From an uncultured Pseudomonadota bacterium (GTDB lineage Bacteria; Pseudomonadota; Gammaproteobacteria; Xanthomonadales; Wenzhouxiangellaceae), in NCBI GenBank assembly GCA_937138395.1, contig CAKZPB010000077.1, forward strand, positions 1 to 64,000: a stretch of DNA of 64,000 bases, read 5' to 3'. The position numbers and the translations under genes are program-made. Shown here piece after piece: positions 19,601-22,164 of this stretch (positions within the stretch are counted from its first letter, which is position 1; each line of letters opens with the position of its first letter). Below the pieces are notes generated by a model. The model was not told the DNA's origin, did not search any database, and worked only from the letters and a program-made list of their open reading frames with translations.

Positions 19601-19635
19601 GCTTAACTTTTGCTTAACTGACGTTTCGATAGGAT
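19601..19635 (+). promoter_or_regulatory. Tandem OmpR/PhoB-type box and -10 ahead of the response regulator
   Basis: Two identical octamers GCTTAACT occur at 19601-19608 and 19612-19619, an 11-base period typical of winged-helix OmpR-family dimers binding side by side. Ten bases after the second copy lies TAGGAT (19630-19635), a plausible -10, as in PhoB-activated promoters that lack a -35. The regulator encoded at 19777 may bind here and control itself; that is inference from spacing. Confidence 0.5.
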
Positions 19636-19638
19636 TAG

Positions 19639-19663
19639 TTTAGCCGCGACTCTCTCGGCTAAA
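19639..19663 (+). other. Perfect 8-bp stem in the response-regulator leader
   Basis: TTTAGCCG (19639-19646) and CGGCTAAA (19656-19663) pair perfectly around a 9-base loop. The stem lies at the expected transcript start and before the terminator-like hairpin at 19708, so it would sit near the 5' end of the leader RNA. Confidence 0.4.
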
Positions 19664-19707
19664 TGAACTGCCTTACTCTGCTAGTGATTACGAACGGGGC
19701 AATCCTT

Positions 19708-19736
19708 GGCCTGGGCCGCAAAGCCCGGGCCTTTTT
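19708..19736 (+). terminator. Intrinsic terminator-like hairpin in the leader of the two-component operon
   Basis: A 9-bp GC-rich stem (19708-19716 with 19723-19731, one G-U pair, 6-base loop) is followed by five T residues (19732-19736). It ends 40 bases before the response-regulator ATG. It may terminate pilU transcripts, or, because a probable promoter lies upstream at 19601-19635, attenuate the two-component operon itself. Confidence 0.7.
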
Positions 19737-19776
19737 CATGCTGGATGGTCATCGACTGGAAGATTCAGGACAAGCT

Positions 19777-20481
19777 ATGCGAATTTTGATCATTGAAGAC
19801 AATCGCGATATCGCGGCCAATCTGGGCGACTATTTGAGCGATTGTGGTCACGAAGTGGATTATGCGTATGACGGGGTCTCCGGCCTGCACCTGGCTGAGA
19901 CGAATGAATTCGATGCCATGGTGCTGGATGTTTCGTTGCCGGGTATGGATGGATTGGAAGTTTGTCGCAAGCTGCGCGAGGAAAGCCTGAAAGAAACGCC
20001 CATCTTGATGCTGACTGCACGGGATCAGCTTAACGACAAACTGGCCGGCTTTGAATCCGGGGCGGATGATTATCTGGTCAAACCCTTCGAGCTCAAGGAA
20101 GTCGATGCCCGCTTGGCCGTACTGGCGCGACGCGGGCAGCGCATCGCGCCACGTGAATACCAGGTTGGAGATCTGCATTTCAATCTGCAAACCTACAGTG
20201 TGCGGCGCTCAGGCCAGCCAATTGACCTGAATCCGATCGGCCTGAAGCTGCTTGAAAAACTGATGTCTGCTTCCCCTGCCGTGGTTTCCAGGACCGACCT
20301 CGAGCGCCACGTCTGGGGCGAGGAATTACCGGACAGTGATAGTCTGCGTGTGCATATCCACAGTTTGCGCGCCGCCATCGACAAACCGTTTGATCGGCCG
20401 ATGATCCATACCCGTCACGGTATCGGATACAGCCTGGTCGAGCCGGAGTCGGAGCAGGATGCAGTATCGTCGCCGGCTTAA
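19777..20481 (+). CDS. OmpR-family response regulator
   Basis: From the ATG at 19777 the product is 234 residues. The receiver domain has the acidic pair in LIIEDN, phospho-acceptor D51 in VLDVSLPGMDG, T80 in LMLTARD and K102 in YLVKPF. A winged-helix DNA-binding domain follows (about 125-225) with RTDLERHVWGEELPDSDSL and VHIHSLRAAIDKPF. An in-frame upstream ATG at 19663 would read through the terminator hairpin and adds residues unlike the family, so it is rejected. The 3' end overlaps the kinase gene by 23 bases. The tandem repeats at 19601-19619 are a likely autoregulatory site. The signal is unknown. Confidence 0.93.
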   Translation: MRILIIEDNRDIAANLGDYLSDCGHEVDYAYDGVSGLHLAETNEFDAMVLDVSLPGMDGLEVCRKLREESLKETPILMLTARDQLNDKLAGFESGADDYLVKPFELKEVDARLAVLARRGQRIAPREYQVGDLHFNLQTYSVRRSGQPIDLNPIGLKLLEKLMSASPAVVSRTDLERHVWGEELPDSDSLRVHIHSLRAAIDKPFDRPMIHTRHGIGYSLVEPESEQDAVSSPA

Positions 20482-21757
20482 GAGTCGCATCACCTTTTCG
20501 TTTGTTGTGTTCGGCACGCTGCTCAGCGTGCTGTTTGCGGTTTCGGTTGTGCTGCTGCAGCAGTGGATCGAGGATGCACTGATTTCAAGGACGTTGGCGC
20601 AGGAGCTTGACCAGTACCTGGTCGAGCTGCGACAGGACCCGACGATCGTCGAACCGTTTTATTCACGCATCCAAGGCTATGTGACGCGACCAGGCCGGGC
20701 CGAGATTGTGCCCGAAGCCTTTCGAGGGTTGCCAACCGGTGTGCACAGCGTTCAATCCGAAGGCGCGTCTTACAAGGCCGCGGTTCGCAAGGACGAGGAT
20801 TTCTGGGGCTTCATCACCTACGATGTCTCGGATAATCAGGAATTGGCACGTCGGCTGTGGGTCGCGCTGATTGGCGCTGTGCTGATCTTCTCGCTGTTGT
20901 CGCTGGCACTTGGGCTTTGGTCTGCAGGCCGGGTCATGGCACCGGTCAGCAATCTGGCCAGGCGGCTGGATGAACTGGAAAGCGACAAGGATTACCCCGG
21001 GCTTGCCCAGCATTTTCCCGACGATGAAGTAGGTCAGCTGGCTGCTGCCCTCGATGACTATGCCCACCGGCTGAATGAAATCGCTGAACGCGACAAGGCT
21101 TTCAATGCCGATGTATCGCATGAGCTGCGAACACCGCTGGCCGTCATCTCAGGCGCAACGGAGTTGTTGCTGGCGCAGCAGGACCTGCCTGACCGGGTGC
21201 GTGAACGGTTGCTCCGTATTGCGCGAGCTGCAAGGCAATCGACCGACACCACGACGGCGCTGCTTCATCTGGTGCGGGCAGAACGCGGTTCGGCGGGCGC
21301 TGCCTCTGCTCAGGATATTGGACAGATCGCTGAACAACTGGTCAACAACTACCGGCCATTGATTGAGGGTCGGCCAGTCGAGCTGAATGTCACGCATACG
21401 ACGCGCCTGAGCGTAATCGCGCCCGAGGCGGTCATTGCGGTCACGCTGGGTAACTTGATCGGGAATGCGGTTCGATATACTGCGAACGGTTCGGTTACGG
21501 TTGACGTGCGAACGGGTGAAGTTGAAATTCTGGATACCGGGCCGGGAATCCCTGAGCAGGAGCTGCCACAAATCTTCGACCGTCATTTTCGCGGTCGCGA
21601 TGTGGGTGGCAAGGGGTCCGGACTTGGTCTTTCCATCGTCCGTCGCCTGTGTAATCTGTACGGCTGGACGATTGAATTCAGCAATCGAAGCGATCAATCG
21701 GGCTTGAGAGTGCTGATTCGATTTTATCCTGACCGTGACCAACTGAGCCCGGAATAA
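20459..21757 (+). CDS. Sensor histidine kinase, partner of the OmpR-type regulator
   Basis: A 432-residue membrane kinase. Two transmembrane helices (about 12-34 and 133-156) bracket a roughly 100-residue periplasmic sensor domain. A HAMP-like linker follows, then HisKA with NADVSHELRTPLAVISG (phospho-acceptor H221), and a HATPase with GNLIGNAVRYT, DTGPGIPE and KGSGLGLSIVRRL. The start overlaps the response regulator by 23 bases, so the two are coupled and surely cognate. The sensor domain lacks recognisable ligand motifs. Confidence 0.93.
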   Translation: MQYRRRLKSRITFSFVVFGTLLSVLFAVSVVLLQQWIEDALISRTLAQELDQYLVELRQDPTIVEPFYSRIQGYVTRPGRAEIVPEAFRGLPTGVHSVQSEGASYKAAVRKDEDFWGFITYDVSDNQELARRLWVALIGAVLIFSLLSLALGLWSAGRVMAPVSNLARRLDELESDKDYPGLAQHFPDDEVGQLAAALDDYAHRLNEIAERDKAFNADVSHELRTPLAVISGATELLLAQQDLPDRVRERLLRIARAARQSTDTTTALLHLVRAERGSAGAASAQDIGQIAEQLVNNYRPLIEGRPVELNVTHTTRLSVIAPEAVIAVTLGNLIGNAVRYTANGSVTVDVRTGEVEILDTGPGIPEQELPQIFDRHFRGRDVGGKGSGLGLSIVRRLCNLYGWTIEFSNRSDQSGLRVLIRFYPDRDQLSPE

Positions 21758-21831: not shown

Positions 21832-22164
21832 ATGGCAATCATTCACTGTCCGGCCTGCAACCAACGCATGTCATCGGTCGCCAAAACCTGTCCTGCCTGC
21901 AGTAGCCCGATCGGCAAGCTCAGTGAAGAAGACCGCGAACGCCTACAGGCGCGACGTCGAAAAACCCGAATCTATCGGGCGCGGAACGTGACCTATGTTG
22001 CCATGACGCTGATTGTCTTGGGCATGTTGGTCTGGTGGTTTCAGCCACCCAGTGGACTGGCGCTGCCCGTGCCGTTCATGCCTGCACTGCTGTTCGGTCT
22101 GGGTACCGTCGCATATGTGGTGGGTTGGTGCTGGCTGCTGATGATTCGATTCGGTCGCAGCTAG
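21832..22164 (+). CDS. Small zinc-ribbon membrane protein
   Basis: The 110-residue product starts with two CxxC knuckles, CPACNQRM and CPACSSPIG (residues 6-27), that form a zinc ribbon. A basic segment RERLQARRRKTRIYRARN and two hydrophobic helices (about 53-69 and 83-103) follow. The layout of cytosolic zinc ribbon plus two membrane spans is common in proteins of unknown function. It lies 74 bases after the two-component operon and could be its target or simply a neighbour. Confidence 0.7.
   Translation: MAIIHCPACNQRMSSVAKTCPACSSPIGKLSEEDRERLQARRRKTRIYRARNVTYVAMTLIVLGMLVWWFQPPSGLALPVPFMPALLFGLGTVAYVVGWCWLLMIRFGRS

Follow-up and report, generated by a model that had tools for sequence, protein, structure and literature searches.

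The DNA analyzed here, a 64-kb stretch that we refer to as the window, carries on its plus strand a two-component operon that had been recognized in the original prediction. The first gene (positions 19777..20481) encodes a response regulator of 234 aa, in which both the receiver domain (PF00072) and the Trans_reg_C winged helix (PF00486) score above cutoff, as is characteristic of the OmpR/PhoB family. The second gene (20459..21757) encodes a sensor histidine kinase of 432 aa with matches to the HAMP, HisKA, and HATPase_c domains. The solved chains nearest to the regulator include DrrD and BasR, and BasR/PmrA is also among the nearest NCBIfam models; none of the best 25 of these models reached its cutoff, and assignment of the regulator as PmrA/BasR was rejected, as it scored 152.6 bits versus the cutoff of 330 for the NCBIfam PmrA equivalog. 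The regulator start codon (ATG, 19777) is preceded by an AGGA ribosome site. The same frame is open upstream to an in-frame ATG at 19663, giving a 272-aa frame (19663-20481) that runs through the terminator described below and is probably a matter of chance; we rejected this ATG as the start of the regulator, as no ribosome site was seen before it and the regulators of related bacteria align from 19777. Directly 3' of the kinase gene, positions 21832-22164 encode a small protein that starts with a CxxC...CxxC motif and contains hydrophobic stretches; its only Pfam match, to DUF2721, is sub-threshold.

Upstream of the regulator gene and on the same strand lies a tandem response-regulator box (19601..19619), formed by two copies of GCTTAACT (19601-19608 and 19612-19619) that are repeated exactly with a period of 11 bases. 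The second copy is separated by exactly 10 bases from the sequence TAGGAT (19630..19635), a -10 element located 11 nt past the TTAAC-N6-TTAAC core of the box. The core occurs once in the window versus 0.01 occurrences expected, and the whole 19-base box, with up to three mismatches allowed, also occurs once versus 0.09 expected. Both the exact repeat with its spacing and the OmpR-type character of the box had been pointed out beforehand; the former is confirmed and the latter is supported. CTTAAC-N5-CTTAAC consists of two 6-bp head-to-tail half-sites with 5 bp between them, which is the 6+5+6 geometry of the Salmonella PmrA (BasR) box, given as CTTAAG-N5-XTTAAT with half-sites 5 bp apart in the text available to us (PMC3973317). 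Unlike the PmrA box, the half-site found here ends in C/T.

Downstream of this promoter we predict a small RNA of about 95 nt (19642..19736, plus strand), whose start is placed 7 nt after the -10 element. At its 5' end, TTTAGCCG and CGGCTAAA (19639-19646 with 19656-19663) constitute an inverted repeat (19639..19663) with a 9-base loop. The perfect 8-bp stem originally described there is present in the DNA, whereas only five of the eight pairs would fall within the RNA if its start is at 19642. The conserved core CTGCTAGTGATTACGAACGGGGCA (19678..19701), delineated from alignments A1, A3, and A4, includes the G-rich segment GGGGCA (19696-19701). It is followed by an intrinsic terminator (19708..19736), in which the GC-rich 9-bp stem GGCCTGGGC/GCCCGGGCC (19708-19716 with 19723-19731) precedes five T residues (19732-19736) and ends 40 bases before the regulator ATG, in full agreement with the original prediction. 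Taken alone, such terminators are not above chance (4 in 5 kb versus 5.0 +/- 2.0 expected), and the fold of 19642-19736 by itself is modestly stable (z -1.88 versus shuffles). The elements exceed chance because they are conserved in relatives, and the case for them therefore rests on comparison.

For this comparison we extracted 55 RNAs and built a covariance model, R1, from 42 of them, the 13 omitted sequences being either close to others or divergent. The orthologues in the family and the order share a common upstream arrangement, namely a tandem box, a -10 element, a variable structured stretch, the core (for example GATTACGGTAATCGGGGCAGT or CGGTTACGGGGCAATG), and, last, a GC-rich hairpin followed by a T-run, and their RNAs have a median length of 113.5 nt. 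Altogether 147 hits were gathered, 138 of which are unique, and 137 of the latter have at least 100 nt upstream and form the set used for box scoring. The best TTAAC-N6-TTAAC box matches at 9 or 10 of 10 positions in 136 of these 137 upstream regions (43 are perfect), while a score of 9 is reached in 0.28% of shuffled upstream regions. The gap between the box and the -10 element is 11 nt in 113 of the 136 relatives and 13 nt in 21, accounting together for 134. Absence of the boxes from close relatives had been named as grounds for abandoning the prediction; their conservation, together with a -10 element at fixed spacing, instead suggests a dedicated promoter ahead of the RNA and supports the plausible promoter that had been proposed 5' of the terminator.

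Conserved stems in orthologous leaders had been suggested as a further check, and covariation was observed at both ends of the RNA. In the terminator stem of the 42 sequences, 94.3% of cells are paired and 8 of 10 pairs have changes on both sides; the covariation of 0.511 compares with 0.290 in shuffles (0 of 500 reach the observed value) and with at most 0.243 when the stem is slid. The covarying stem and the T-run together indicate a Rho-independent terminator at the RNA 3' end. The stem equivalent to the 5' hairpin covaries in A3, a set of 18 related members, with 6 of 9 pairs changed on both sides and 96.9% of cells paired, whereas slid controls for the whole A3 structure fall to 34-46% paired. 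Each of the only four aligned sequences from the window's genus seems able to form a 5' hairpin, although the sequences differ. The G-rich segment, which is probably exposed and unpaired, reads GGGGCA in 114 of 136 RNAs and GGGGCG in two; five have a CGGGA form and 15 have other sequences. The Xanthomonas- and Stenotrophomonas-like members have low model scores and a core changed to CGGGA. We found no conserved short reading frame among the 136 RNAs, only 31 of which contain a complete frame of at least 10 codons.

At a cutoff of E<=0.01, the R1 model has matches in 131 of the 200 genomes searched from the order, some of the weakest being terminator-only partial matches, and gives 113 hits at E<=1e-5; the remaining 69 genomes have no match. 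Ten of the sampled families of the order contain matches to the RNA. In the window's genome the predicted RNA itself is the single full-length hit (42.4 bits), and the runner-up is partial (21.5 bits). Outside the order nothing convincing was detected: six of 369 genomes of the class matched at E<=0.001, of which two belong to this order and the other four are weak (with E values of 4e-5 in one case and of 4e-4 to 9e-4 in three). A search of 84,980 named species genomes with an exact 20-base core pattern returned 65 stretches, mostly from Luteimonas, Silanimonas, Dokdonella, Rudaea, Pseudomarimonas, and Lysobacterales/Rhodanobacteraceae. The regulator is found downstream on the same strand in 63 of the 65, including loci where it lies 3.0 kb (L234) or 4.9 kb (L192) away; of the other two, L181 is truncated where its contig ends and L235 is a chance match within a gene.

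The RNA is closely associated with the regulator. It was matched in 131 of 192 genomes with a regulator orthologue and in none of eight genomes without one (Fisher p 1.5e-4, a value that treats genomes as independent despite their relatedness and counts weak matches in). For 109 of the 113 hits at E<=1e-5 the position of the regulator could be assigned, and without exception the regulator lies 0-5 kb downstream of the RNA, on its contig and strand; the distance is up to 60 nt in 41 cases, 61-350 nt in 55, and greater in 13. Among the 138 unique hits, the regulator start is within 900 nt in 127, and the other 11 comprise six loci that end just past the start codon, four with longer inserts (L161, L165, L192, and L234), and one at a contig end (L181). 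The regulator also occurs without the RNA, namely at L057, in several members of families f8 and f7, and in one of the two G002 copies. Because some relatives have lost the RNA, it is not essential to the regulator everywhere. At locus L052 of genome G033 the box and the -10 element are retained while the RNA and the terminator are gone, and the promoter apparently drives the regulator directly.

We used pattern searches to count the promoter sites in each genome. With the full pattern, a box followed after 11 nt by TANNNT, we found 38 sites in 36 of the 43 family genomes, and 35 of these sites are at the RNA locus; the three sites elsewhere compare with two in the reversed control. Across 111 of the order's genomes, a stricter Y-form of the pattern gave 52 sites. 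Of the 35 Y-form sites that are not from family f9, 34 are at the RNA locus, whereas within f9 there are 17 sites versus 9 in the control. Apart from family f9, sites away from the locus are thus at the level of the reversed control, and the searches revealed no wider regulon, for a stringent pattern that degenerate, weaker, or differently spaced sites would escape. The box without the -10 element gave 9 sites (5 at the RNA locus) versus 51 in the reversed control, a comparison that is informative only against enrichment, as the control differs in composition. Judged by these patterns, most of the genomes searched have no clear canonical site other than the predicted RNA promoter.

Two additional sites were observed in these searches. 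In the window's genome, a perfect box/-10 match (G000:C137:25088-25120, minus strand, locus L249) lies just 5' of a bactofilin gene (PF04519) and is the sole other site even with one mismatch allowed, which makes this gene a possible second target of the response regulator. In three genomes of one genus of family f9 (G087, G105, and G119), the near-identical second box TTTAACTGTTATTTAATTNAATTTATTGTATCAT recurs and may mark a further conserved target.

On the basis of the conserved sequence, the covarying pairs, the synteny, and the geometry and near-uniqueness of the promoter, we consider it likely that the two-component operon has its own small-RNA gene at 19601-19736. The phosphorylated response regulator would activate the promoter by binding the tandem box, with which the -35 region overlaps; the resulting transcript, about 95 nt long, would extend from near 19642 to position 19736, where the intrinsic terminator ends. 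Its architecture, in which a structured 5' domain and the probably exposed GGGGCA precede a hairpin terminator and a U tail, is that of a base-pairing regulatory RNA, and this RNA would act on its targets in trans. In the window's family some polymerases probably continue past the terminator and transcribe both the regulator and the kinase gene, which would result in autoregulation; the regulator of other families seems to be transcribed from a promoter of its own. Given that each genome has hardly any other copy of the complete promoter, this RNA probably constitutes the chief direct output of the signalling system.

A small RNA gene beside its presumed regulator is an arrangement of a known kind. 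In the divergent LysR-type pairs GcvA/GcvB and OxyR/OxyS the regulator gene likewise adjoins the small RNA gene that it presumably controls, whereas the RNA described here is in line with the two-component operon and 5' of it. In contrast to the GacA-RsmY/RsmZ system, whose regulator GacA is of the LuxR type, the regulator here is of the OmpR/PhoB type and the RNA gene directly adjoins it. The likeness to that system of Pseudomonas, in which the direct output of a two-component regulator is one or few small RNA promoters according to the text of PMC4866733 available to us, lies in a box/-10 promoter that is almost unique per genome. Unlike RsmY and RsmZ, the RNA has fewer GGA triplets than expected and is therefore no obvious decoy for CsrA/RsmA. 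More speculatively, and with somewhat less than even confidence, we propose an order-wide Xanthomonadales/Lysobacterales small RNA family that would be the dedicated, nearly exclusive direct output of the adjoining OmpR-type system and would regulate in trans via GGGGCA, following a GacA-Rsm-like logic that evolved separately and does not involve CsrA titration.

The original prediction had interpreted the locus as autoregulation combined with premature termination. A promoter ahead of the terminator and conservation of the box and of both stems are supported, but a mainly attenuating leader is not. According to this interpretation the RNA would be a cis-acting 5' leader of the regulator operon, whose terminator is conditionally bypassed so that autoregulation is tuned. 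The RNA is indeed upstream of the regulator on the same strand in every testable case, the gap between the terminator and the start codon is only 14-60 nt in most members of the window's family, and the RNA-less promoter of L052 agrees with such a role. However, 42 of 115 close cases have a -10-like element between the terminator and the regulator start. A TANNNT sequence 4-10 nt before the regulator start is present in 31 of 71 cases with a spacing of 61-350 nt (4% expected by chance) and in 11 of 44 with a spacing of up to 60 nt (9% by chance); ribosome sites were seen in 27 of the 71 and in 6 of the 44. Moreover, in some members other genes separate the RNA from the regulator, with promoter-like sequence, judged by eye, between the terminator and the inserted gene. 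These separate -10-like elements and promoter-like sequences argue that the RNA and the regulator are predicted separate units in much of the order. The one antiterminator candidate examined, a 4-bp GGGC/GCCC pairing that could compete with the terminator in most sequences, is almost without covariation and is mostly broken where one side changes to a non-G-U form. Neither an Rfam riboswitch or leader match nor a conserved leader-peptide frame was found to favor attenuation. We regard a cis-acting attenuator as unlikely; attenuation through partial read-through may occur in the window's own family. No clear -10 element is present in the window at 19737-19776, so the RNA could serve as a leader there, and the regulator mRNA would most likely derive from transcripts that begin at the RNA promoter, or come from pilU, and pass the terminator.

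The other possibility originally raised was that the terminator merely ends transcription of pilU, with the promoter serving the regulator. The element does sit 3' of pilU in the window, but the gene upstream of it is rimK at L234, where the RNA, box, and terminator remain with the regulator, so the element does not travel with pilU; in addition, the promoter and the RNA core are conserved jointly, far more than a bare terminator would be. This explanation is highly improbable. We also give little credence to a sponge, in which the G-rich segment would either capture a C-rich-loop RNA like sX13 of Xanthomonas or titrate CsrA/RsmA in the manner of RsmY/Z. The almost invariant GGGGC in a probably unpaired stretch would suit the former, as sX13 works via C-rich loops on 4G motifs (PMC3771888, in the text available to us). 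This idea is weakened by the CGGGA carried by the Xanthomonas- and Stenotrophomonas-like members, sX13 itself being reported in that text from Xanthomonadaceae only. Titration of CsrA/RsmA is opposed by a depletion of GGA triplets in the RNAs (116 versus 220 in shuffles) and by ANGGA motifs that are not enriched (26 versus 37). The small-RNA gene that we favor resembles sX13 in being small, structured, and fixed in genomic place across related bacteria; it differs in having a G-rich segment instead of C-rich loops and in its locus, that of sX13 being downstream of polA (PMC3771888, same text).

No Rfam family matched the locus at either permissive or gathering thresholds, and a literature search covering main texts yielded no description of the RNA. 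It was likewise not found in main-text passages of two Xanthomonas RNA catalogues (PMC3744752, PMC6192180), whose supplements may list a Xanthomonas member without a recognized family. We believe the RNA family to be undescribed. Should the RNA be produced and act in trans, a single RNA would be the defined output of a conserved two-component system. This would account for the presence of about one complete regulator promoter in each genome, and a family that is absent from Rfam and spans ten sampled families of the order would be added to the known RNAs. The locus also illustrates that a terminator between a promoter and a start codon does not necessarily imply attenuation.

The genes inserted between the RNA and the regulator all run in the same direction as both. 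In one family of the order they encode small secreted-looking proteins, sometimes in tandem, which have no Pfam or NCBIfam match and constitute a protein family of their own (L157:583-1143, L165:700-1797, L192, and L234). Further inserted genes are present in G121, where the product is a BlaI-like repressor, and at L234, where it is an M56 peptidase of the BlaR1 type.
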